This document shows positions 115 to 40,731 of a DNA stretch of 42,749 nt, piece after piece. The notes under the pieces were generated by a model. That model was not told the DNA's origin. It was given only the letters and a program-made list of their open reading frames with translations, and did no database searches. This DNA comes from a virus, in IMG/VR virus record IMGVR_UViG_3300033151_001073, positions 1-42,749 of that record; one strand, written 5' to 3'. Positions within the stretch are counted from its first letter, which is position 1. The number at the start of each line of letters is the position of its first letter. Both the position numbers and the translations under genes were made by a program.

Positions 115-544
115 TAGGTTGCCCATTGTGGGTGCATTTGTAAGGGGTTTTGGTGAGGTGGTGTCTATTGAAACAATCGAACCGCCTCCCCCGCCTGCGC
201 CTAAGAAAGAATATGGTTTTCTCTCAACGGAGGCTAGAGGCGAATTGCGATTAAATGGTGAAGTGATCGCGCGGCTATGTGGTTTTAATGATTTTTATGG
301 CCTCGAAACGAGCGTCAAGAGCGCGACCAAAGAAATGCGGACATACGCTGCCGACCGGAAAATAGGCTCGGAAAGTGAGCTGGAAGTAGTGGTGGTGAAG
401 TCGGTTGTCAAGTCCGCCGCCATTCCATCTATGTTGGCGGCAAACCGTTATGATAAAGCATATTGCGGTTTTGAAGGAGTTTGTCCTTCCCTGGATGAGG
501 ATTTGGTGGAGTCTGTTGTTTGGAGCAGCAAAACAATCAAATGA
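104..544 (+). CDS. Hypothetical phage protein
   Basis: A 146-residue protein of unknown function. The ATG at 104 has a clear GGAGG at 94-98; an in-frame TTG at 92 would overlap that site, so 104 is preferred. A proline run (PPPPPAP, about residues 27-33) separates a short N-terminal piece from the rest. There is no membrane segment or recognised motif. It is the first gene of a run of short plus-strand accessory genes and sits 27 bases after the gene that spans the join. The stop overlaps the Shine-Dalgarno region of the next gene, so the two are probably co-translated. Confidence 0.75.
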   Translation: MDEHRLPIVGAFVRGFGEVVSIETIEPPPPPAPKKEYGFLSTEARGELRLNGEVIARLCGFNDFYGLETSVKSATKEMRTYAADRKIGSESELEVVVVKSVVKSAAIPSMLAANRYDKAYCGFEGVCPSLDEDLVESVVWSSKTIK

Positions 545-4655: not shown

Positions 4656-4970
4656 CGCGGCCCATTTTTTATGGGATGGCATTTATACCTACGAGATAAC
4701 AGGGAATTTAAGCGGAACTCAGATGGCGGATGGGGATGCCTAAGGCAAATCCGCGAAAATTCTCATGTCACATCGTTCCTTTCGTCCATCGGGATCATCA
4801 TTACCGGGGACGGCACATGTGACGATGATGGAATCGCAGAATTCGCAGGACGATTTCCGATCAAGGGCATCCGGTGCGGTGGGAAATTGCGTGGAGGTAT
4901 TGAGGTATATGTCGGTGAATATGGAGCAATCAAAGGTGCGGGAAAATGTCAGATAAAATCCAAAAACTAA
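4626..4970 (+). CDS. Hypothetical protein, paralogue B of a tandem pair
   Basis: A 114-residue paralogue of the gene at 4070-4411, with the same N-terminus and the same spacing of SFLSSIGI, DGTCDDDGIAEFA, FPIKG and RCGGKLRGG. The C-terminus differs (KCQIKSKN) because it runs 25 bases into the terminase small subunit gene. Function unknown. Retention of two diverging copies directly upstream of the packaging genes could point to a role in late expression or packaging, but nothing in the sequence proves it. Confidence 0.75.
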   Translation: MRRFLIAEYCRGPFFMGWHLYLRDNREFKRNSDGGWGCLRQIRENSHVTSFLSSIGIIITGDGTCDDDGIAEFAGRFPIKGIRCGGKLRGGIEVYVGEYGAIKGAGKCQIKSKN

Positions 4971-5665: not shown

Positions 5666-7659
5666 TGGAAGCACCGCAACCCATATCCGCCGAATCGCCG
5701 CCCCCATGGATCCCCAACGCGATCCTGAAAGGCCTGCCCCACGGCAAACCCGTGGTGTTGACCGCCCGCCTCTCCGCCGGGGAACGCCTGATCCTCCGGA
5801 AACGCCGGCCCATCCGCGTCTCCGTCTGGTCCGAGCGCCACCGGGTGTTGACCATGAGCAGTCGCCCGGGTCCCTGGCGGAATGACCGGACCCCGTATCT
5901 GACGGGGCTCATGGACGCACTCGCCTTTCCATCGGTACGAACCGTCATCCTGTGCAAGCCGCCCCAGGTGGGGGGTAGCGAGGCGGTCAATAATTTTGTG
6001 GGGAGCCGCATCGACCGGGACCCCGGTCCGGTGCTGTACGTGTTCCCCGAAACCAACACAGCCCGCGAAAATTCGCAGGATCGCATCCTTCCCATGATCG
6101 AATCATCCGCAAATCTATCCCAATACCTGACGGGTCATGATGATGATAAGGCCAGTTTCAGAATTAAATTGCGTCATATGCCCATCTATATGGCGTGGGC
6201 CGGATCCGTGTCCCGGTTGGCCAACAAGCCGATCAAAATCGTGGTGTTTGACGAAACGGACAAATATCCCCCGGCATCCAAACGGGAGACGGATCCCATC
6301 ACTCTCGGGGAAAAACGGGTCATCACCTATCCCTATGACCATAAGATTATAAAAATCTCCACGCCCACCGTTGAATCCGGTCCCATCTGGGTGGCCATGG
6401 AGACCGAAGCACAGGTGATATTTGATTTCTGGGTGGAATGCCCCGGATGCGGCGAGATGCAGCCCATGGTGTTTGATCAGATCAAATGGGACAAGGTAGA
6501 GGGGGAAGACGGAAAACCTACGCACCCCGATCCGGAGCGCATGCAAAACCTTCAACTGGCCTGGTACGAATGCCCGCACTGTCAATGCCAATGGGATGAC
6601 GGGTGGCGGGATAAGGCGGTATCCGCCGGGGAATGGCGGTCACGGACCACGCGGGAAGAGAAACAGCCGCTTGAGCTGGAATACTATCTGAATTCACGAC
6701 GCCCGACAAAAATCGGGTTCCATATCCCGTCGTGGATTAGTTCCCTGGTGAGCATGTCAACGGCGGCCGCCGCGTTCATCAAAGGCCGTCACAACCTGAA
6801 CGCCCGGAAGGATTTTTGGAACGCTCACAAGGCCGAGGCGTTCGTCTTCCGTAAATCGGAGCGGGCCGAGGATTCTATTCTGGCGTTGCGGGATGACCGG
6901 CCCAGGGGTGTGGTGCCGTCCGCCGGGGTGGGAGAACCGGCGATCATATCCTGTCTGACCGCCGGGGTGGATACCCAGGATCATGGGTTTTGGTATGAGA
7001 TCCGGGCATGGGGATTCGGCCTGGAGTTGCCCAGTTGGCAGATCCGTGAGGGGTATGTCGAGACATTCGCGGCCCTGCATCAGGTTTTGTTCTCTGATGA
7101 TTATGTGGATCCGGCGGATCAGAAGTACTTTGTCCGGCTGGCCATCCATGATGCCATGGGGCACCGAACCAGCGAGGTCTATGATTTCGCCCGCCAGCGC
7201 CGGGGGCGTGTGTTGGCGTTCAAGGGGGAGCGCCGCCTGGCCCAGCCGTATGCCTTCAGCGAACAGGAATTTTATCCGGGGACCAAAAAGCCCATTCCCG
7301 GCGGCATCAAGTTGTGCCGGGCGGATGTGACCTATTTTAAAAATCAGTTGTCGAGCAAGTTGAACATCACGCCCGGGGATCCCGGCGCGTGGATGATGAA
7401 TGCGGAGACCAGCTTTGAATGGGCTAAGCAGATGTGTGTCGAGGTTTTGACCGAAAAGGGGTTTTGGGAAAACCCGAAAGAGCGTGCCAACCACGGGTGG
7501 GATTGCAGCGTTTACAACCTGGTGGCCGCGGAGGTCCTGGGGATCCGCCACTGGCGGCTGCCGGGGGCCCCAAAACCCAAACCGGCAAAACCGCCCTCAT
7601 CCGGCAAACGTGATGGAACCTGGCATGGGTATCGGCGGCCGGGTTGGCTGAATCGGTGA
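5665..7659 (+). CDS. terL: Terminase large subunit, lambda gpA family
   Basis: ATP-driven motor and nuclease that cuts and packages phage DNA into proheads. The length (664 residues) fits the GpA family. A Walker-A-like KPPQVGGSE lies near residue 98, a Walker-B-like VVFDETDKYPP near 195, and the C-terminal nuclease half contains AGVDTQDHGFWYEIRAW near 435 and a later AIHDAMGHR. A zinc-knuckle-like CPGCGEM and CPHCQCQW pair sits between the two domains, as in many GpA proteins. Start and the previous stop share one base (TAATG). The following gene is not the usual W-like connector, which appears only at 11155; a 3.5 kb regulatory cassette separates them. Confidence 0.95.
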   Translation: MEAPQPISAESPPPWIPNAILKGLPHGKPVVLTARLSAGERLILRKRRPIRVSVWSERHRVLTMSSRPGPWRNDRTPYLTGLMDALAFPSVRTVILCKPPQVGGSEAVNNFVGSRIDRDPGPVLYVFPETNTARENSQDRILPMIESSANLSQYLTGHDDDKASFRIKLRHMPIYMAWAGSVSRLANKPIKIVVFDETDKYPPASKRETDPITLGEKRVITYPYDHKIIKISTPTVESGPIWVAMETEAQVIFDFWVECPGCGEMQPMVFDQIKWDKVEGEDGKPTHPDPERMQNLQLAWYECPHCQCQWDDGWRDKAVSAGEWRSRTTREEKQPLELEYYLNSRRPTKIGFHIPSWISSLVSMSTAAAAFIKGRHNLNARKDFWNAHKAEAFVFRKSERAEDSILALRDDRPRGVVPSAGVGEPAIISCLTAGVDTQDHGFWYEIRAWGFGLELPSWQIREGYVETFAALHQVLFSDDYVDPADQKYFVRLAIHDAMGHRTSEVYDFARQRRGRVLAFKGERRLAQPYAFSEQEFYPGTKKPIPGGIKLCRADVTYFKNQLSSKLNITPGDPGAWMMNAETSFEWAKQMCVEVLTEKGFWENPKERANHGWDCSVYNLVAAEVLGIRHWRLPGAPKPKPAKPPSSGKRDGTWHGYRRPGWLNR

Positions 7660-7670
7660 AGGAAAAACTC

Positions 7671-7931
7671 ATGCCACTGTGGAACGAACATAAAAACTAC
7701 ACTACCTCCGGCGGCCGGTTCCAGCATTTCGGGCGGCGGACCGAGGTCACCTACTCCGTTTCGGAAACCGCTGAGATTTTTTCCGTTCACAAGCAGACGG
7801 TTATGAAATGGCTGCAAACTGACGAGGACGGCGCGGCGGTCATTACTTCGGGTGCATGGTTCAGGATGCCGGTATCCGGGCATATCCGCATAAGAGAATC
7901 GGCTATTTTGAAATTGCAGGAAAAAACCTGA
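7671..7931 (+). CDS. Small helix-turn-helix protein
   Basis: An 86-residue DNA-binding protein. GAAGGA lies eight bases before the ATG at 7671, so this start is favoured over an ATG at 7644 inside the terminase gene. The middle (YSVSETAEIFSVHKQTVMKW) is an HTH_17/excisionase-type helix-turn-helix with MerR-like helix spacing; the tail (GHIRIRESAILKL) is the usual wing and C-terminal helix. It lies just before the promoter and C4-like RNA leader and could regulate that promoter or act as excisionase, which is otherwise not visible in the genome. Confidence 0.7.
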   Translation: MPLWNEHKNYTTSGGRFQHFGRRTEVTYSVSETAEIFSVHKQTVMKWLQTDEDGAAVITSGAWFRMPVSGHIRIRESAILKLQEKT

Positions 7932-7978
7932 GTCTTTTAAACCCTAATCACGAAAGCGGGATCAAAACTTCTTTTTCG

Positions 7979-8007
7979 TTGACAGCATTTCCAACCCCGA
8001 GTATTCT
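7979..8007 (+). promoter_or_regulatory. Sigma70-type promoter of the antisense RNA / antirepressor transcript
   Basis: TTGACA at 7979-7984 and TATTCT at 8002-8007 are separated by exactly 17 bases, close to the vegetative consensus. Transcription would start near 8014, just ahead of the C4-like RNA and the three-gene antirepressor operon. It is the best consensus promoter noticed in this cassette. Confidence 0.7.
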
Positions 8008-8056
8008 GGCAGTGTCGTGGCAAATTCCACGGCCCGGATTAACAGCCGGAATACTC
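7999..8056 (+). promoter_or_regulatory. Inverted repeat overlapping the promoter
   Basis: GAGTATTCTGGC (7999-8010) and GCCGGAATACTC (8045-8056) are inverted with one mismatch, enclosing a second short hairpin CGTGG/CCACG (8016-8020, 8027-8031). The left arm contains the -10 hexamer. It may be an operator for a repressor, or fold in the 5' end of the transcript. Confidence 0.5.
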
Positions 8057-8059
8057 AAA

Positions 8060-8199
8060 AGGTGCGCAAGCGCCTCAATTTCGTACGGCGCTTTTTTTGT
8101 CCGTACGATTCCCCTGGCGGGTTGCGCGCGGGAGCCTTCGGGCTCGCCGGTCTTGCCTTTTGAGCCGGTCTGTTAACCGCGTGCAGCCCGCCTTTTTTT
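8060..8199 (+). ncRNA. C4-like antisense RNA
   Basis: The region has the hallmarks of C4 antisense RNA, which in P1/P7 (and the related P4 system) is processed from the leader of the antirepressor transcript and blocks its translation. A perfect 8-bp stem TCGTACGG (8081-8088) / CCGTACGA (8101-8108) displays a T-rich loop, CGCTTTTTTTGT. A UUCG-capped stem GAGCC/GGCTC follows at 8132-8145, then CCGGTC repeats, then GTTAACCGCGTGCAGCCCGCC. Conceptual translations (AFFVRT, later SVNRVQPAFF) match the fortuitous reading frames seen over such RNAs in enterobacterial prophages annotated as ash/Icd-like. T-loop and TGTTAACC (8171-8178) can pair with 8200-8221. Exact ends are not known. Confidence 0.72.
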
Positions 8200-8221
8200 G
8201 GTTAACAGCAAAAAAAGGCGG
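8200..8221 (+). promoter_or_regulatory. Probable target site of the C4-like RNA
   Basis: GGTTAACA (8200-8207) is complementary to TGTTAACC (8171-8178), and AAAAAAAGGCGG (8210-8221) is complementary to CCGCCTTTTTTT (8188-8199) and partly to the T-rich loop near 8091-8098. This is the a/b target arrangement of C4 systems, here placed 35 bases before the ATG at 8256. Pairing in cis would form a hairpin with a loop that can pair upstream, i.e. a pseudoknot. Confidence 0.6.
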
Positions 8222-8255
8222 ATCTCTTCCAACCCTTGTCAAAAGGAGATTCGTT

Positions 8256-8510
8256 ATGGAAAACAACACCATCCCGTCCGAGTACCTGCTACACGATCCG
8301 CGAGACATTAATCCCCTGCATCCCGGTTACACATCCAAAAACCCCAGGCTTATTGATTACAACACCCGTTGCGACCTAGTCGATATTCTCAATGGTCTCG
8401 TGGAGGCAGCAGAGATGGTGCCAGGTACACCGGGTTGTAAGCATCTGTTAACCCAAATGAAAGCCATCGTTTCCATTGTCAGTGAAAGCACGGAGGGGGT
8501 GAAATCATGA
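8256..8510 (+). CDS. Small first gene of the antirepressor operon (unknown function)
   Basis: An 84-residue protein with AAAAGGAG eight bases before the ATG at 8256. It is the first frame after the C4-like target site, the position held by icd or leader genes in P1-type operons, whose translation is coupled to the antirepressor. It lacks known motifs; a helical segment (DLVDILNGLVEAAEM) lies in the middle. Its stop overlaps the next start (ATGA), so shutting off its translation would affect the genes downstream. Confidence 0.72.
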   Translation: MENNTIPSEYLLHDPRDINPLHPGYTSKNPRLIDYNTRCDLVDILNGLVEAAEMVPGTPGCKHLLTQMKAIVSIVSESTEGVKS

Positions 8511-9034
8511 CCGATTACCAGGCAGGCATGATGGTGAGACAGAGGGCCATTGAGTGGTGGCCATACATAGGGACTATCGTCAACCGTTTAAATGAGGCAT
8601 GTGAAAAAAGGAACCCCGAGGTGCTGACGGATATATTTTTGGATGCCGGAAAAGTGGTATGTAAAATCAGGAGAGATATCACGGTCAACGCATTTCGAGA
8701 GAACCTTAACGAACAACTGAGGTATTACCGGATCGTTGTCAGAGATGCGGTGCGTAAGAATAAGAGGCTTCAGAATCCAATCGGGAAGCATGGAAAACCA
8801 TTAACGGAGAATACACTCAAACAATACCGCGCCATCGTGAAAAACTGGCCGCTGCGCCGGGAAGGGTTGAAAGAGGAAATCCGGAATAGAATAGACGAAA
8901 TTAAGACGTTTTCCAATGAGCACGGCAAAATCATTTCACGGGGCAATGTTTCATTAAAATTGCTTTACGGGGGTCAACATTCGGCAAAGCTGCAGGTCTT
9001 GAACGGCGCAAACGAGTGGCGTCAGATTCGATAG
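8507..9034 (+). CDS. Hypothetical protein of the antirepressor operon
   Basis: A 175-residue, basic, mostly helical protein that overlaps its upstream neighbour by four bases. The N-terminus (AIEWWPYIGTIVNRLNEA) and a basic mid-section (RDAVRKNKRLQNPIGKHGK) suggest a nucleic-acid-binding or protein-binding role. No family was recognised. Position in the operon suggests that it acts with the antirepressor. Confidence 0.7.
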   Translation: MTDYQAGMMVRQRAIEWWPYIGTIVNRLNEACEKRNPEVLTDIFLDAGKVVCKIRRDITVNAFRENLNEQLRYYRIVVRDAVRKNKRLQNPIGKHGKPLTENTLKQYRAIVKNWPLRREGLKEEIRNRIDEIKTFSNEHGKIISRGNVSLKLLYGGQHSAKLQVLNGANEWRQIR

Positions 9035-9047
9035 GAGGGCATAAATT

Positions 9048-9893
9048 ATGGAGCATAATGTAATTCCGTTTATGTATGAGGCAAATGAAGTCCGAACCAT
9101 TCTCGATGAAGAGGGCAATCCCTGGTTTGTGGCCAGGGATGTATGCAATATTTTGAGTTTGGAAGATACTGGCCGTGCTTTAGAAAAATTGGACGATGAT
9201 GAAAAGCTGACCCGAAAAGTTTTCGGGTCAGGTCAGGAAAGAGATGTATGGTCCATCTCCGAATCGGGGCTTTACACCCTGATCATCCGGAGCAACAAAC
9301 CCGAGGCCAAACCCTTCCGGCGGTGGGTAACCCATGAGGTGCTGCCATCCATTCGGAAAACCGGGTTTTACGAAGCCCGCGAGCAGGAATCCGACGTCCT
9401 GAGCAAACACCAACTGGCCGAGGTGGCCTACCGGGTGAAACAGATCATGATCATGACACGGGCTTTCGGCTACAAGGGCGCCCGGGGAAAGCTTATCGCC
9501 AACGACGTGATCAGGGACGCTATCGGCGTGGATCCCCTGTCGCTTCTGGGCGTAAAGGATGAGGTTCTGGCCGAATATGAATCCACACACCGGGCCGATG
9601 AAGACGACCGCCTGCCGGTCCTTATGTCCCCGAACGTCCGGCTCGACAAAAAGACGCTGGCCGATTTCGTGGAAGCATGCTGCACCGTTCAAGAGGAGTT
9701 GATCGAAAGCGCCATGAAGCTCTATCAGCGTTTCGATTCCTGGTACGCAGCCACCCGCGGCATCCAAACGGCCCCGTCGCAAAAGGCCTTCGGCCTTCTG
9801 ATGTCCGCTCATTTCCAGAAATTCAAGGGCGGCACGTATTTTTATAAAGGCATTCGCTTGAAGGAAGAAACGGCGGATCTTCGTGCGGTGTAA
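9048..9893 (+). CDS. BRO-family antirepressor with a helicase-type C-terminal domain
   Basis: A 281-residue protein. Residues 1-115 are a BRO-N domain: NPWFVARDVCNIL, a DDDEKLT stretch, VWSISESGLYTLIIRS and FRRWVTHEVLPSIRKTG are the family signatures. BRO-N proteins bind DNA, and several phage ones lift repression. The C-terminal part is not the common KilA-C or ANT domain. Residues about 205-275 end in KAFGLLM---F, then GGTYFYKGIRLKEE, which closely resembles the end of the SF3 helicase at 37341 and of the small protein at 40237. GGAGGG precedes the ATG at 9048. It lies third in the operon behind the C4-like RNA, so its synthesis is probably repressed by that RNA during lysogeny. Confidence 0.88.
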   Translation: MEHNVIPFMYEANEVRTILDEEGNPWFVARDVCNILSLEDTGRALEKLDDDEKLTRKVFGSGQERDVWSISESGLYTLIIRSNKPEAKPFRRWVTHEVLPSIRKTGFYEAREQESDVLSKHQLAEVAYRVKQIMIMTRAFGYKGARGKLIANDVIRDAIGVDPLSLLGVKDEVLAEYESTHRADEDDRLPVLMSPNVRLDKKTLADFVEACCTVQEELIESAMKLYQRFDSWYAATRGIQTAPSQKAFGLLMSAHFQKFKGGTYFYKGIRLKEETADLRAV

Positions 9894-10016: not shown

Positions 10017-10685
10017 CTATTCTGTTAAGGCAGCCGCTTTTGATGTTAAACTTTCTACGTGTGAGTCGTAACTTTGAACATCATAAATATCGATAGGTTC
10101 CTGAATTTCTTCCAGGAATAAAATCTGAGATGGTCTTATTTTTGTTTCCTTTTCCCATTCCAGATGATCACCCATTGTCTTACTTCTATATCGTTTCGGG
10201 AGCAATAGCCCAACTTTCAGAAATAATTTTTTCTTTCCTTCAACTAAGACCTCTTCGAATTCGACAACATCCGAGATTATTTTTCCACCTCTTTTAAAAA
10301 TTAAACCGTAATGTTTGCCGGAACTGCAAAACTTTTCCCATTTGGCCATTTCTTCATAGAGTTCGTCCCCGAACTCTTCGCGTTCTTCTTTCTCAACTTC
10401 GGACCTTTGTTCCTTTTGATATTGGTCGTATATCTTTTTGGTTTCCGGGTGTTCCAGCGATTTTTCGATTAATGAATTAACGGCACGAATATCCATGTCG
10501 GGCGTCACTTTGAGCCCTAGCCTTTCACATAGCTTCAGTTTGCTTTTGCTTGGAGGATATTTTTTAGCATCGCGCGGCGGATCTTGGTAAACAGCGGAAT
10601 TTTTTATCTGTACGGCAGAAGGTTTTTCTTTGTATTTCGAATAGAGAATAAACCCGATTACTAACAAAGCGATAAACCACCACAT
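10017..10685 (-). CDS. Membrane-anchored cargo protein (moron candidate)
   Basis: A 222-residue protein on the minus strand within an otherwise plus-strand region. AGGAG lies six bases before the ATG at 10685. The N-terminus is a single transmembrane helix (WWFIALLVIGFILYSKY), followed by a long cytoplasmic, charged, helical part (EKEEREEFGDELYEEM) and a beta-rich end with FKRGGKII and LFLKVGLLLPKR. No family was recognised. Reverse orientation, its own flanking sequences and isolation between similar terminators are typical of lysogenic-conversion genes, for example superinfection exclusion. The role is inferred from context only. Confidence 0.75.
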   Translation of the reverse strand: MWWFIALLVIGFILYSKYKEKPSAVQIKNSAVYQDPPRDAKKYPPSKSKLKLCERLGLKVTPDMDIRAVNSLIEKSLEHPETKKIYDQYQKEQRSEVEKEEREEFGDELYEEMAKWEKFCSSGKHYGLIFKRGGKIISDVVEFEEVLVEGKKKLFLKVGLLLPKRYRSKTMGDHLEWEKETKIRPSQILFLEEIQEPIDIYDVQSYDSHVESLTSKAAALTE

Positions 10686-10794
10686 TGCGTTACTCCTAGT
10701 TTCCTCAGTCTTTATATGGATAAAACAGTTAAGCATTAGGGGGAAGCAAACGGAATGTCAAGTAGAATTTGTTCAAAGTGGACGGACTGTTTTC

Positions 10795-32462: not shown

Positions 32463-32666
32463 TTATTTCTCGAAAGATAATTTAAAACAAAACCGAAAAA
32501 TCATATAAGTACGCCCATTCCGTCCAATCCGAAACATCCGGTAAATGGCGAATCGTCGGAATTTCCGTAAAATGGTTGGTTTAATGCGGGTGTGGATGTG
32601 CCCTTCAACTACTTTGTAGACCGTGCCGTGTTTATACCCCCATTTTCCGGGCCACTGTTGTTGCAC
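32463..32666 (-). CDS. Possible small overlapping gene
   Basis: A GTG at 32666 follows GGAGGCGGGGCA at good spacing and opens a 67-residue, very basic frame (GTVYKVVEGHIHTRIKP, ILRKFRRFAIYRMFR). It overlaps the 3' end of the repressor gene by 58 bases and fills the gap before the OB-fold gene. It might be translated, but it lacks recognisable family features and could be chance. Confidence 0.3.
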   Translation of the reverse strand: MQQQWPGKWGYKHGTVYKVVEGHIHTRIKPTILRKFRRFAIYRMFRIGRNGRTYMIFRFCFKLSFEK

Positions 32667-33376
32667 TGCCCCGCCTCCAAGGAGGCGATAGATTTTTTTA
32701 CGTTTTCCAACTCTTTTTCTAATTTTCTTTGACGGAATTCGAGTTGCTCTTTCTCAATTTTAGCCTTCTTTCTCTCAATTTTAGCCTTCTTTCTCTCAAT
32801 TTTAGCCTTCTTTCTCTCAATGATTTTTTCGTGAAACTCTTTGATATTCGATTTGAGCGCTTCTATCGTGCCTCGTTCACCGCTGTCAAATATCTCAATG
32901 ACTGTATCAATGTACTCCTGATCCGGGTGGGGTTGCCCAAAAAGGGTTTGCGGCATAAAGGTTCCGTCCCTGGGTTCTGTGTAGAGCTGCGGGCGGCTGT
33001 CGCGGCCTTGGTCTTTGGGTATGCCGATATTTTCTTCAGGTTCCGGATACGGTTCTGGGGTGATACCGCCATTATTGCTGTCTTTGTCTGAGTTGTTCTC
33101 TTTACTGTTACGTTTTTTTGGATTAGCGCATAATGCACAGAGTTTCTTTATATCCTCTGGCAAGTCGTCAAGATTTAGGATTACTTCAATATCATGATCA
33201 GGGATGGATTTCCTACGGATCCAGGTAGCAATTAGCTTGTTGCTGTTTACATTAATTTTTTTCCCAGCCTTTTTGTATAAATCTGCCTTCCATTTTTTGT
33301 TGCCAGAAACTCGCACACTATAGTGTGCCGCAAGCGCTTGAAAAAACTTATCCACAATATTTTTATACTTTGTCAT
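32609..33376 (-). CDS. Probable lysogeny repressor with coiled-coil C-terminus
   Basis: A 255-residue minus-strand protein that diverges from the early genes, the usual place of the CI gene. Residues 1-75 look like a helix-turn-helix (LYKKAGKKINVNSNKLIATW, IRRKSIPDHDIEVILNL). A proline/acidic linker follows, then residues 165-235 form a coiled coil with three exact ERKKAKI heptads. No S24 peptidase motif (cleavage Ala-Gly or catalytic Ser/Lys) is visible, so SOS self-cleavage is unlikely. No Shine-Dalgarno precedes the ATG at 33376, so it may be leaderless, as for lambda cI. Confidence 0.7.
   Translation of the reverse strand: MTKYKNIVDKFFQALAAHYSVRVSGNKKWKADLYKKAGKKINVNSNKLIATWIRRKSIPDHDIEVILNLDDLPEDIKKLCALCANPKKRNSKENNSDKDSNNGGITPEPYPEPEENIGIPKDQGRDSRPQLYTEPRDGTFMPQTLFGQPHPDQEYIDTVIEIFDSGERGTIEALKSNIKEFHEKIIERKKAKIERKKAKIERKKAKIEKEQLEFRQRKLEKELENVKKSIASLEAGQCNNSGPENGGINTARSTK
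32755..32817 (-). repeat. Three 21-bp tandem repeats in the repressor gene
   Basis: CAATTTTAGCCTTCTTTCTCT recurs at 32755, 32776 and 32797 without change, each unit coding one coiled-coil heptad (ERKKAKI). Copy number could vary without shifting the frame. Confidence 0.9.
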
Positions 33377-34236: not shown

Positions 34237-34674
34237 ATGCAGGATGTGATTGATCTTCTGGACGTAGCAGCAAAGAATTACCCCATGAAAGCCCTCGCCC
34301 CTGACATTGGGAAGGCCGAGAGCACCCTTCGAAACGAGCTGACCCAGCAGGATGGATACAAACTGGGGCTCATCACGTCATATCAAATCCTCAAACTCAC
34401 CAAAGATTTCCGCCCCCTGGACCGGTTAGAGAAACTGCTGGGCCGGGTGGCGTTTGTTTTACCCAGGGCAACGGCAACCGATATGCCCACCCTGATGCAG
34501 TTGACCGGAGACCTGACCCGGGAATTCGGTGAACACATGACAGCATTGGGGACGGGCCTGGCAGATGGGAAATTAGACAAAGACGAAATTAAACTCTGCG
34601 TCAAAGAGTTATCGGAAGTTGTTGATGTGAGCATAAGGCTTAAGGCGTACCTTGAGCAATTGGAATCAAGTTAG
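34237..34674 (+). CDS. CII-family regulatory protein
   Basis: A 145-residue protein with the phage regulatory CII pattern (PF06892-like): QDVIDLLDVAAKNYPMKALA, IGKAESTLRNELTQQDGYKL, then LGLITSYQILKLTKDFRPLD and a helical C-terminus (VVDVSIRLKAYLEQLE). GGGAGG precedes the ATG at 34237. Such proteins act in the lysis-lysogeny decision. It follows the Cro-like gene, in lambda-like order. Confidence 0.8.
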   Translation: MQDVIDLLDVAAKNYPMKALAPDIGKAESTLRNELTQQDGYKLGLITSYQILKLTKDFRPLDRLEKLLGRVAFVLPRATATDMPTLMQLTGDLTREFGEHMTALGTGLADGKLDKDEIKLCVKELSEVVDVSIRLKAYLEQLESS

Positions 34675-35939: not shown

Positions 35940-35983
35940 GACCCGATAAAATGATTGCTTCCCTTTCACACTCCCATGCTATG

Positions 35984-36015
35984 ATTCCCCCATTTCAATA
36001 TGAAATGGGGGGAAT
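35984..36015 (+). promoter_or_regulatory. Long palindrome upstream of the integrase start
   Basis: ATTCCCCCATTTCA (35984-35997) and TGAAATGGGGGGAAT (36001-36015) are inverted with one extra G; the spacer is ATA. It could be an operator or hairpin controlling integrase. ATTTCAATATG within it recurs in the attachment region at 37237. Confidence 0.65.
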
Positions 36016-36019
36016 GGAG

Positions 36020-37180
36020 ATGAGAGGCGGTATTTACACAAGGGAAAAGTGCCCGGAATGCGGGCGCAATTTCAAGGATAATGGGAGGAACGGGCTCCAA
36101 TGCATGGATCACCCGAGGCACTGGGCGCGCCGGAATTTTTCGGTTCGGTTTTTATCTATCCACCGCGAATTCAAATATTACGAAAAAGCATCCCGTTTTT
36201 TAAATGGGCTTCGCTATGAGGTGGACGCACAAAAATTTGACGTTCGCGATTATCAAGAAAAAAGTAAACCCTTAGCTTTTGAAAATCTAGCAGATACCTG
36301 GCTTGAAGTAAAACGTCAGGGTGGCATTAAAAAAGGCTCTTTCAAAAACATCAACACCCACATGAAGCGGGCAATTGCTAATTTTGGAATTCAAAATATA
36401 AAAGCAATATCCTCGTTTGACATTCAAACTTATCTATTGGGCCTTTCAGATCTATCCAGTAAATCGCAACACAACCACATGAGCACATTACGACAGTTTT
36501 GGAGATGGGTGGTATCAATGGATGAATCAATTCCGCTCCCGACATTTCCAACGGTATCTTTTACCTTGGGGTGGAGGAAAACTATATCTAAAAAATTACA
36601 GCAAGATATTTTAGGAGAAATCCAAAGAATTGCACCTAAGAAGGTTTGGATAGGGATCAAATTTCTTTGTATTTATTTCAATGTACGGCCTGGTGAGCTT
36701 TTAGCAATTCTTGAGAGCGATATTGAGCTTGACCGGGCCAGGATTTGGATCCGTAAAACAAAAGAGCGAGAAGCAAAATTCCTGTATTTGTTAGACGATG
36801 ATGTGGAATTGTTATCAGCACTTCCATCGGTAATCAATAAAACCATGCGGTTTTTCAGGCATGACTCTGGAGTTAGTGGAACACAAAAATGCGCACCTTA
36901 TGGCGAAAAATATTTTTATAAATGGTGGAAACGTGCATCCGGTAACCTTGAAATTCACGACGTTGATTTATACGGCGGCACGCGGCATTCAACAGTTCAG
37001 TATTTAAGAGATGAAGGAGTTACTCCGGAGGAACTTCGCATGGCTTCGGGTCATGCAACCAGCAGGGCTTTTACCAGATATTTTGGGAAATCGCCGGACT
37101 ATTTGAGAAGGATTTACGCGGGGAAAACCCGTACGACTTCGGTCACGGAAATCGTACGGGATAAGAAGGTAAGCCATTGA
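36020..37180 (+). CDS. int: Tyrosine-family integrase
   Basis: Site-specific recombinase that inserts the phage into the host chromosome. With ATG 36020 (GGGGGGAATGGAG upstream) it has 386 residues; an ATG at 35951 would extend it through the palindrome. An N-terminal zinc ribbon (CPECGRNFKDNG, then CMDHPRHW) precedes a SAM-like core-binding domain (NINTHMKRAIANFGIQNIKA). Catalytic elements: FNVRPGELLAI (first Arg), LYGGTRHSTVQYLRDEG (Arg-His), ASGHATSRAFTRYF (His, and the Tyr nucleophile). The attachment site is directly downstream. Confidence 0.95.
   Translation: MRGGIYTREKCPECGRNFKDNGRNGLQCMDHPRHWARRNFSVRFLSIHREFKYYEKASRFLNGLRYEVDAQKFDVRDYQEKSKPLAFENLADTWLEVKRQGGIKKGSFKNINTHMKRAIANFGIQNIKAISSFDIQTYLLGLSDLSSKSQHNHMSTLRQFWRWVVSMDESIPLPTFPTVSFTLGWRKTISKKLQQDILGEIQRIAPKKVWIGIKFLCIYFNVRPGELLAILESDIELDRARIWIRKTKEREAKFLYLLDDDVELLSALPSVINKTMRFFRHDSGVSGTQKCAPYGEKYFYKWWKRASGNLEIHDVDLYGGTRHSTVQYLRDEGVTPEELRMASGHATSRAFTRYFGKSPDYLRRIYAGKTRTTSVTEIVRDKKVSH
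37128..37160 (+). repeat. Inverted repeat inside the integrase 3' end
   Basis: CCCGTACGA (37128-37136) and TCGTACGGG (37152-37160) are perfect inverted arms separated by 15 bases, about 40 bases from the attachment core. Their position suits arm-type integrase or excisionase sites. CCGTACGA also occurs in the C4 stem and the iterons at 10921. Confidence 0.6.
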
Positions 37181-37250: not shown

Positions 37251-37340
37251 GCATGCCTTCCGTAATCTTCTAGTACACCTCCTCTCAAAATTTCGTTAAA
37301 AAAATACATTTAATTGGCATTTGTCGTTAAGAGGATTTCT

Positions 37341-38909
37341 GTGGCTGAAACCGATATCCCCATTGAGGAACTGGTTCGAAAGCGGGTGGAGGCGGAAAAA
37401 AGCGCGGGGGCGGATCCGCCGCCTGCAAAAAGCCCGGCTGCAACCGGTGGGAACGGGAATATTACTCGGAAATTCGTCCGGGATTGCTTGAAAGCCAATC
37501 AGCTCGGGGACGGCTTGCTGTATGCGGCGCTACACCAGGGGAAATTTGCATTGAATATGAAAACCTTGGAGTGGATTAGATGGGCCGGACATTTCTGGAC
37601 CTTGGATGAGATGGAAGAATCACTGGCCAGCGTCGAAACCGTAGCACAGCGGTACCTCGAAGAGGCTAGGGATATTGTAGCCGATATTGATCAGGCCATG
37701 AAAAAGGATGATCAAGAGACAGCGACCGCATTAAAGAAAACCCAGAAGAATATTTATGGCCGGGTCCAATGGTTGCGAGGGGAAAACGGCCGCAAAAACT
37801 GCCGGAAGTTCGCGGCTGTGAACCTGGATAATCCGTTGGCGATATCCGGCAATGAGTTGGATCAGGACCCATGGCTGTTTGCGTGCCAGAACGGCGTGAT
37901 TGATTTGCGGACAGGCGACATGCGGCCCGGGCGCCCGGAGGACTGGATCAGCAAGGCCAGTCCCATAGAATATCCGGGCATTGATGCAAAACCCACAGTT
38001 TGGGAACAAACCCTACTTCAGATTTTTGACGGCGATCAGGAATTGGTGGATTACATGCAGCGCCTCCTGGGGTACGGCATGGCCGGCCTGACGGATGAAG
38101 CGGTTTTGCCCATCATGTGGGGGAAGTACCGTAACGGAAAAACAACAATCGTGGAAAAGATCAAACGCATTTTGGGGCCTTTGTCAACGCCCGTTCAATC
38201 CGAAATGCTATTGGATCAGGGCCGGAACCAAAGCGCCGCCGCCGCCAGTCCGGACGTCATGTCCCTGAAAGGCGTTCGGATTGCGTTTGGATCCGAATCG
38301 GATGAAGGCCGGCGGTTTTCAACAGCCAAGGTGAAATGGCTTTCCGGATCGGATAGCCTGGTGGCTCGCTCTCCTTACGATCGCCGTACCACAACATTTA
38401 CACCGACCCACCTCCTGATTCTCCTGACCAACAATCGCCCTCATGCCCCGGCCAATGATTTGGCGTTTTGGATCCGGGTTCAGCTGATCCCTTTTCCGTT
38501 GTCGTTTATTGATAATCCCGTGCGGGACAATGAGCGCCTTCGGGACAAATCGATCCCTGATAGGTTGATAAAAGAAGAGCCTGAAATCCTTTCGTGGCTC
38601 GTTCGTGGCTGTTTGCGGTGGCAACGGGACGGGCTTGCGCCGCCGAAGGTGATTCTGGATGCCACAAAAGCCTATCAGCGCGAAGAGGATATGTTGGCGG
38701 ATTTCCTGGAGCAGAGATGCCATCTTGACCCAAAATCTCAAATTTCCGCCTCTGATATTTACGACGCGTTTAAAGAATGGCATTCCGAAAATGTGAGCAA
38801 GAAATACACTGTTAGTCAGAAGAAATTTGGAATGTTAATGAAGGATAAGTTCGATAAGGTTAAACGTGGCACCTATTTTTACAAAGGCCTGCGTTTAATG
38901 GTGGCGTGA
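37341..38909 (+). CDS. SF3/D5-type replicative helicase (phage primase-helicase C-terminal half)
   Basis: A 522-residue protein with the D5_N plus SF3 layout of P4-like replication proteins. D5_N region: FACQNGVIDLRTGDMRPG; Walker A: GKYRNGKTT (about residues 261-269); later FGSESDEG and LLILLTNNRPHAP (sensor 1). The N-terminal primase of P4 alpha is missing; a separate primase lies downstream. Residues about 450-522 form the C-terminal module ending FDKVKRGTYFYKGLRLMVA, shared with two other genes. GTG 37341 with AAGAGG is the likely start. Confidence 0.92.
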   Translation: MAETDIPIEELVRKRVEAEKSAGADPPPAKSPAATGGNGNITRKFVRDCLKANQLGDGLLYAALHQGKFALNMKTLEWIRWAGHFWTLDEMEESLASVETVAQRYLEEARDIVADIDQAMKKDDQETATALKKTQKNIYGRVQWLRGENGRKNCRKFAAVNLDNPLAISGNELDQDPWLFACQNGVIDLRTGDMRPGRPEDWISKASPIEYPGIDAKPTVWEQTLLQIFDGDQELVDYMQRLLGYGMAGLTDEAVLPIMWGKYRNGKTTIVEKIKRILGPLSTPVQSEMLLDQGRNQSAAAASPDVMSLKGVRIAFGSESDEGRRFSTAKVKWLSGSDSLVARSPYDRRTTTFTPTHLLILLTNNRPHAPANDLAFWIRVQLIPFPLSFIDNPVRDNERLRDKSIPDRLIKEEPEILSWLVRGCLRWQRDGLAPPKVILDATKAYQREEDMLADFLEQRCHLDPKSQISASDIYDAFKEWHSENVSKKYTVSQKKFGMLMKDKFDKVKRGTYFYKGLRLMVA

Positions 38910-40205: not shown

Positions 40206-40236
40206 GGAAGCGGGACAATAAAAGGAGGGAATGATT

Positions 40237-40731
40237 ATGACTGAAGAAAAGATGGGCCGTTCAGAGCAACAGATACAGCGTCACGGAGAACGGGTGGCGT
40301 CTCTGGTGGTGGAGGTGGGTGAGGCCTTTGGGGTGAACCCCCCGGAAGTGGACCGCCTGAAACGCTATACGCAGTGGCTTTTCTGTGAGGGCGCTCATTA
40401 CGGCGTGGTGATAGCCGGCATGCCCAATGCCGACAAAGAAAAACAACCAGACGCCACGGAGACGTACATCCAAGAGGAGGACCTGATCGCGGATTTCCTT
40501 GAAGAGTGCTGCCGTATGGATTCGGAGTTTGAAATGCCGGTGTGGGTTATTTATGACGCATATAAGGAATGGTTTTCCGAAAACGTCAGCAAAAGGATAA
40601 TCCCCTCCCGGAAAAAATTTGACACTTTAATGGGAGATCGGTTCGATCAGGTCAACCGTGGGACGGGTTTTTATAAGGGACTCCGGCTAATGGTGCCTGA
40701 TTCCGGATCATCGGGCAGTAGCTGTGTTTAA
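40237..40731 (+). CDS. Small protein with helicase-type C-terminal domain
   Basis: A 164-residue protein. AGGAGG is eight bases before the ATG at 40237. Residues about 80-155 match the helicase C-terminus almost position for position: DLIADFLEECC, VIYDAYKEWFSENVSK, RKKFDTLM---F, GTGFYKGLRLMV. The N-terminal 75 residues are unrelated to the helicase (GERVASLVVEVGEAFGVNPP). It may bind the same DNA or partner as the helicase and so regulate replication. Confidence 0.8.
   Translation: MTEEKMGRSEQQIQRHGERVASLVVEVGEAFGVNPPEVDRLKRYTQWLFCEGAHYGVVIAGMPNADKEKQPDATETYIQEEDLIADFLEECCRMDSEFEMPVWVIYDAYKEWFSENVSKRIIPSRKKFDTLMGDRFDQVNRGTGFYKGLRLMVPDSGSSGSSCV

Follow-up and report, generated by a model that had tools for sequence, protein, structure and literature searches.

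A probable C4-type immunity switch over a Bro-N antirepressor operon between terL and portal in a putative Desulfobacteria phage

Complete C4 cassettes have been described chiefly in phages of enterobacteria and other gammaproteobacteria, and members of the C4 family are processed by RNase P to a product of about 77 nt that is stable in the lysogen. In the immI region of P1 and P7 (C4 RNA-icd-ant1/ant2), the antisense RNA sits in the leader of the operon under its control, its a' and b' elements are aimed at the site where ribosomes load onto a small first cistron, an extra target lies upstream, and the antirepressor is encoded downstream; repression of the P1 icd-ant operon by C4 (PMC8198154), as well as RNase P processing of C4 and the functions of its a' and b' loops (PMC5320573), have been described. 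The isrK-orf45-anrP system of Gifsy-1 (with STnc1160), whose mechanism was shown experimentally, consists of a promoter, a short leader RNA with a terminator, a small first cistron, and an antirepressor; a stable RNA is processed from read-through, and the leader RNA is complementary to it (PMC4825925). The CI RNA of P4 is a processed antisense RNA with complementary sites, seqA and seqC, on both sides in its own transcript, and it acts through transcription termination on replication genes. Finally, the Group 1 C4-like sRNAs of Acinetobacter baumannii, whose C4 processing has been seen in RNA-seq, have the C4 fold and a variable a' loop, and they occur in many bacterial copies whose targets are unknown (PMC5320573).

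Here, we analyzed the whole of the IMG/VR virus record IMGVR_UViG_3300033151_001073 (42,749 bases; referred to as the window), in which a reading made from the sequence only had proposed C4-type control of an antirepressor operon. Conserved loop/target complementarity and the operon content bear this proposal out, and the locus is very probably a C4-type immunity switch over orf1, orf2, and the antirepressor gene (Table 1). The arrangement of elements given above for P1/P7 recurs, but the putative window antirepressor combines a Bro-N domain with a primase-type C-terminal domain, orf2 (175 aa) is additional, the cassette lies between terL and portal, and the host is probably not gammaproteobacterial. 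The Gifsy-1 traits recur as well, with the processed stable RNA and its complementary leader predicted from sequence, although the isrK match of the window falls under the family threshold. An antisense RNA that is processed and flanked by sites complementary to it, likewise predicted, is shared with P4, from which the locus differs in that its targets lie on a ribosome site. In contrast to the Acinetobacter sRNAs, whose fold and variable a' loop it has in common, its target is evident.

Table 1. Positions of the features of the C4 locus and of the related regions of the window
Feature	Position	Strand	Basis or remark
terL (end)	7659		C4 cassette between terL and portal
Sigma-70-type promoter, TTGACA-17 nt-TATTCT	7979-8007	+	Promoter scan
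c4-a1b1-like element holding b1	8001-8053	+	Rfam c4-a1b1, 42.9 bits
isrK-like leader RNA	8014-8098	+	Rfam isrK, 47.7 bits, below gathering score of 50
Upstream target b1, UUAACAG	8039-8045	+	Seven pairs with b'
Upstream target a1, CUCAAAAGG	8054-8062	+	Complementary to a' loop
Candidate intrinsic terminator, GCGCC...GGCGC then T7	8070-8098	+	3' end of isrK-like leader
C4 antisense RNA	8110-8198	+	Rfam C4 (RF01695), 60.6 bits, gathering score 45
C4 P1 closing helix	8116-8129/8179-8192	+	
a' loop, CCUUUUGAG	8156-8164	+	Targeting element
b', CUGUUAACC	8170-8178	+	Targeting element
Inverted repeat, C4 3' strand and U7 with AAAAAAAGGCGG	8188-8222	+	b2 in loop
U7 tract after P1	8193-8199	+	
Downstream target b2, GGUUAACAG	8200-8208	+	Nine of nine with b'
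Downstream target a2, UCAAAAGG	8239-8246	+	Complementary to a' loop
First cistron orf1 (84 aa; placed like icd of P1)	8256-8510	+	No family found
orf2, 175 aa	8507-9034	+	ATGA overlap with orf1; no family found
Putative antirepressor	9048-9893	+	Starts 13 nt past orf2
Putative P4/D5-type C-terminal domain of antirepressor	aa about 200-271		
Head-tail adaptor	11158		
Portal	11378		
255-aa gene	32609-33376	-	Upstream of and divergent from CII-like gene
CII-like gene	34237-34674		PF06892
Integrase-like gene	35951-37180		

The C4 RNA and its four targets

The Rfam C4 model, which the sequence-only reading had named as a check on its proposal, with the lack of a match counting against it, aligns over its full length (1-87) with an E value of 2e-9 over the whole window, and RF01695 is the only Rfam family above its gathering score there. 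The fold is stable relative to shuffles (MFE z-score, -5.9), and its three-stem shape was seen independently in the MFE fold: a P1 helix with GG at its 5' end (8116-8117), a P2 capped by UUCG, and a P3 that carries the a' loop, with the b' segment following P3. A small RNA product is predicted from this locus.

One target for each element lies upstream and one downstream of the C4 RNA, and all four pairings are intact in the window. Their significance was assessed against 5,000 dinucleotide shuffles of the flanks. The complementarity of TGTTAACC to 8200-8208 is a perfect 9-mer (0/5000 shuffles), and the single-site p values are 0.0028 for a1, 0.085 for a2, 0.04 for b1, and 0 for b2; the upstream pair and the downstream pair each arose jointly in 0/5000 shuffles. 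The helix between a1 and a' reaches 8064 when G-U pairs are counted. By itself, a2 is not rare in shuffles, and it has weight only together with b2 and with its position, as it overlaps the Shine-Dalgarno sequence AAGGAG (8243-8248) of orf1 (ATG at 8256). All targets had first been placed at 8200-8221, which was right for b2 as the partner of b', but the T-rich a' loop pairs with a1 and a2 instead. Moreover, the UUCG-capped stem, which had been counted among the targeting elements, is the structural P2, and 8209-8222, rather than being a target, repeats the C4 3' strand in inverted orientation.

This repeat can form a 13-bp hairpin (MFE z-score, -5.8), with 8209-8222 as the arm past b2, that would compete with the P1 helix. 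Comparable pairing tends to be seen at other C4 loci, with 7.31 paired bases against 4.02 in a distant control stretch, and it is moderately locus specific (7.31 at the own locus versus 5.62 across loci). No description of a competing hairpin past b2 was found in the literature searched. Separately, a b' 10-mer, TCTGTTAACC, is repeated in the same sense inside orf1 (8444-8453) and might anneal to either b1 or b2 of the mRNA; as a family feature it was dropped, as only 1 of 121 other loci has such a same-sense copy.

Loop and target pairing across C4 loci

C4 loci were gathered by scanning viral contigs for the P2 core and by an Rfam search of 389 genomes from the class of Desulfonema magnum (Desulfobacteria), wherein 19 genomes had a C4 over the cut-off and 23 had one at an E value of ≤0.001. 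A home-made covariance model built from the Desulfobacteria C4s was abandoned because its alignment put helices in the wrong places and RNAalifold retained no more than 6 pairs. Therefore, a rule-based finder, checked on Rfam positions, was used, giving a set of 128 nonidentical C4s with enough flank; these loci are not all independent, with 98 distinct loops among them.

Over the 128 loci, the a' loop forms 8.16 paired bases with its own downstream flank, compared with 5.37 with the flanks of other loci, and 7.41 with its own upstream flank, compared with 5.05. The corresponding values for b' are 6.96 and 6.95 with its own flanks and 4.87 and 4.86 with those of other loci. A strong a2 site is present in 106 loci, and in 104 of these an ATG lies no more than 22 nt behind it, at a median distance of 8 nt, against 22% of random positions by the same rule; a2 is thus nearly always the site at which ribosomes bind to start the following gene. 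Loops and targets also covary between homologous leaders. The loop CCUUUUGAG of the window faces UCAAAAGG, that of locus L281 (CCUUGUGG) faces CACAAGG, and that of L027 (CCUUUGGU) faces ACCAAAGG; the L281 leader can be aligned with that of the window, and its a and b elements have changed together.

The collection also holds C4 RNAs in other settings. At four Desulfobacteria loci (L165, L171, L176, and L183), C4 precedes what seem to be replication or helix-turn-helix genes instead of antirepressors, a P4-like use. A 14-kb viral contig (L129) has three C4 RNAs (214-293, 4788-4867, and 10155-10237) that differ in loop or b', and several genomes of the class, such as G028, G029, and G032, carry between 4 and 8 C4 RNAs per genome, distributed over separate cassettes.

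The leader and the proposed switch

The promoter proposed from the sequence was recovered as the sole match in 421 bp (shuffles average 0.3); it is near consensus and ends just ahead of the isrK-like start at 8014, and transcription is predicted to begin near that position. A relaxed-threshold Rfam search of 7900-8300 gave the isrK and c4-a1b1 matches. Both miss their gathering cut-offs, the first at 47.7 bits for isrK (RF01394; 50 bits) and the second at 42.9 bits for c4-a1b1 (RF03163; 46.7 bits), and are hence called "isrK-like" and "c4-a1b1-like" only, although the complementarity is present in the latter. Their order is the one that a C4 locus should show, and it recurs, likewise below threshold, at L027, L281, L282, and L283, with isrK scores of 45.9 bits in L282 and 40.3 bits in L281. 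A simple terminator scan of the leader called no terminator, missing the candidate at its 3' end because the loop is long. The peptides AFFVRT and QPAFF, earlier taken as a sign of C4 loci, are present in the fortuitous frames 7856-8176 and 8097-8510, but these frames have no convincing Pfam match and were given no weight.

We propose the following model for the switch. A single transcript from near 8014 would carry the isrK-like leader with the decoys b1 and a1, then C4, then b2 and a2, and finally orf1, orf2, and the antirepressor gene. In the lysogen, C4 would be excised from its own transcript, as RNase P does in P1, and would pair b' with b2 and a' with a2, masking the orf1 ribosome-binding site. 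Because orf2 overlaps orf1 and the antirepressor gene starts 13 nt behind orf2, loss of orf1 translation would also shut off the antirepressor through translational coupling, possibly with a contribution of Rho. If C4 were diluted or titrated, either by an incoming phage lacking C4 or by a surplus of the short leader with its a1 and b1, the three genes would be translated, and the antirepressor would inactivate the prophage repressor, favoring lysis. The decoy role of the isrK-like leader is suggested by the Gifsy-1 system.

The same leader could be given a larger part. If isrK-like logic were dominant, the 8014-8098 RNA would be the main trans regulator, refolding the long transcript and activating the first cistron, with C4 being a by-product or secondary. 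The near-threshold isrK matches in the expected place and order, in the window as in its relatives, point this way, as do the experimental precedent of isrK-orf45-anrP in Gifsy-1 (PMC4825925) and the predicted leader fold, in which the orf1 ribosome site is held in a hairpin of its own. Nevertheless, the strongest conserved signal is the complementarity between the C4 loop and the ribosome site, and C4 is above its threshold where isrK is below; we consider dominance of the leader RNA unlikely. The two ideas are compatible, since a1 and b1 in the leader would titrate C4.

Alternatively, C4 might chiefly force early, Rho-dependent termination through its upstream and downstream targets instead of blocking translation. 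Like seqA and seqC around the P4 CI RNA (PMC4825925), the targets lie on either side of C4, and the C4 3' strand with its U7 tract and the competing repeat resembles a choice between terminator and antiterminator. Such P4-like control is nonetheless rather improbable, given that a2 falls on a ribosome-binding site in nearly all loci, which points to translation, that the U tract behind P1 is missing from some relatives, and that the terminator scan gave no simple terminator.

The antirepressor and the terL-portal slot

The three frames of the operon, in the order orf1, orf2, and antirepressor, are open and tightly packed; orf1 found no relatives when used as a query against the viral contigs. 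That the last gene encodes a BRO-N protein, as had been read from the sequence, was confirmed, and the C terminus that was called unusual there resembles that of P4/D5-type primases. The Bro-N domain (aa 14-100) matches PF02498 with an E value of 1.5e-25 (90 bits; cut-off, 25.6), and the protein matches the Ant family phrog_130 (E = 7e-49) and the primase C terminus of phrog_1156 (E = 4e-6). Residues 192-271 resemble the C terminus of the D5/P4-type primase that the phage itself encodes (BLASTP E = 6e-15; 88 aa aligned at 40% identity), and the C-terminal domain resembles a small protein at 40231-40731 (E = 9e-14) that passes PF03288 (Pox_D5) at 29.4 bits. PF03288 itself gives 15.5 bits on the antirepressor C terminus, under the Pfam cut-off of 21.4; the assignment of the tail as a P4/D5-primase C-terminal domain is thus based on BLASTP homology. 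Counted in this way, the domain is seen three times in the phage, in the primase (37314-38909), in the 40231-40731 protein, and in the antirepressor.

Similar tails appear in relatives. Pox_D5 matches below threshold were obtained for the antirepressors of the window, L027, and L164 (whose antirepressor gene is also that of L281); a C4-controlled Rha-type regulator in L282 has a primase-like C-terminal stretch (phrog_1829, E = 7.9e-5; Pox_D5, 18 bits); and a 532-aa frame upstream of terL in genome G054 has the same stretch. As the head is Bro-N in the window, L281, and L027 and Rha in L282, the head domain, judged by these matches, is exchanged and the primase-type tail recurs. In L281, a small frame resembling that of the 40231-40731 protein was noticed by eye at about 6901-7191 on the reverse strand, directly beyond the antirepressor. 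An AlphaFold model of the antirepressor (3 sequences) was too poor for use (pLDDT, 54.8), and a PDB sequence search with the phage primase gave no match. One joint reading, which we regard as quite doubtful, is that in Desulfobacteria phages the C4-controlled antirepressors with exchangeable heads and primase-type tails act at the DNA or protein partner of the primase, tying the lysis decision to replication start beyond repressor binding, and that throughout the C4 family the 3'-strand competitor downstream of b2 sets the balance between free C4 and a target-displaying hairpin.

The phage is temperate, and its host is probably a sulfate reducer and probably not a gammaproteobacterium. That the window is a Desulfobacteria phage is suggested by relatives of the C4 cassette in this class, wherein TerL matches also reach 57%. 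The CII-like and integrase-like genes are at least about 24 kb away from the cassette in the linear order of the record. The N terminus of the 255-aa gene next to the CII-like gene looks repressor-like by eye; family searches gave no convincing match.

The cassette had been located correctly between terL and the adaptor and portal genes, but the location is less exceptional than supposed. It was dropped as a unique feature, as three host-genome prophages (L281, L282, and L283) have C4 cassettes in the same interval. In L281 (host genome G054), the order is terS, terL, HTH, C4, orf1, and Bro-N antirepressor, with a portal-like match further downstream; the orf1 stop overlaps the antirepressor start, and the antirepressor is 36% identical to that of the window over 275 aa. 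The cassettes of L282 and L283 (C4 at 75.1 and 73.6 bits) lie between terL and head genes, and the leader order of the window is shared by two further relatives, L027 and L140. In the nearest TerL relative found, L185 (TerL, 64%; adaptor, 82%), the 2.9-kb terL-portal interval holds other genes, without C4 or antirepressor; in many others only 0.6 to 1.3 kb separates terL from portal. A Bro-N gene occupies the slot in L194, and the rule-based finder saw no convincing C4 at any of the 80 TerL loci. The window slot also contains a 239-aa gene of no family (10017-10736, minus strand) between antirepressor and head-tail adaptor. The terL-portal interval is thus a variable cargo site, with the C4 cassette as one occupant. 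It is very improbable that the cassette is decayed, with a persisting C4 fold and an antirepressor operon that is mere cargo without a role in the immunity of this phage: its distance from the CII-like gene and the related phages carrying other cargo in the slot would fit, but each of the four targets still pairs, the promoter departs little from consensus, none of the three closely packed frames is interrupted, and L281, although strongly diverged, retains the same cassette at this site.

In conclusion, the cassette is genuine and, as part of a known type of phage immunity switch, not unprecedented; its site among packaging and head genes is unusual, and the pairing of Bro-N with a primase-type tail and the recurrent late-region slot are modestly new. 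A complete C4 cassette is now placed in a phage that probably infects sulfate reducers, and with the rule, drawn from a comparison of 128 loci, that links the a' loop to the ribosome site, sequence is enough to find the target of any C4 RNA. New hints on how immunity, packaging, and replication may be linked come from the primase-type tail of the antirepressors and from the repeated use of the terL-portal slot.
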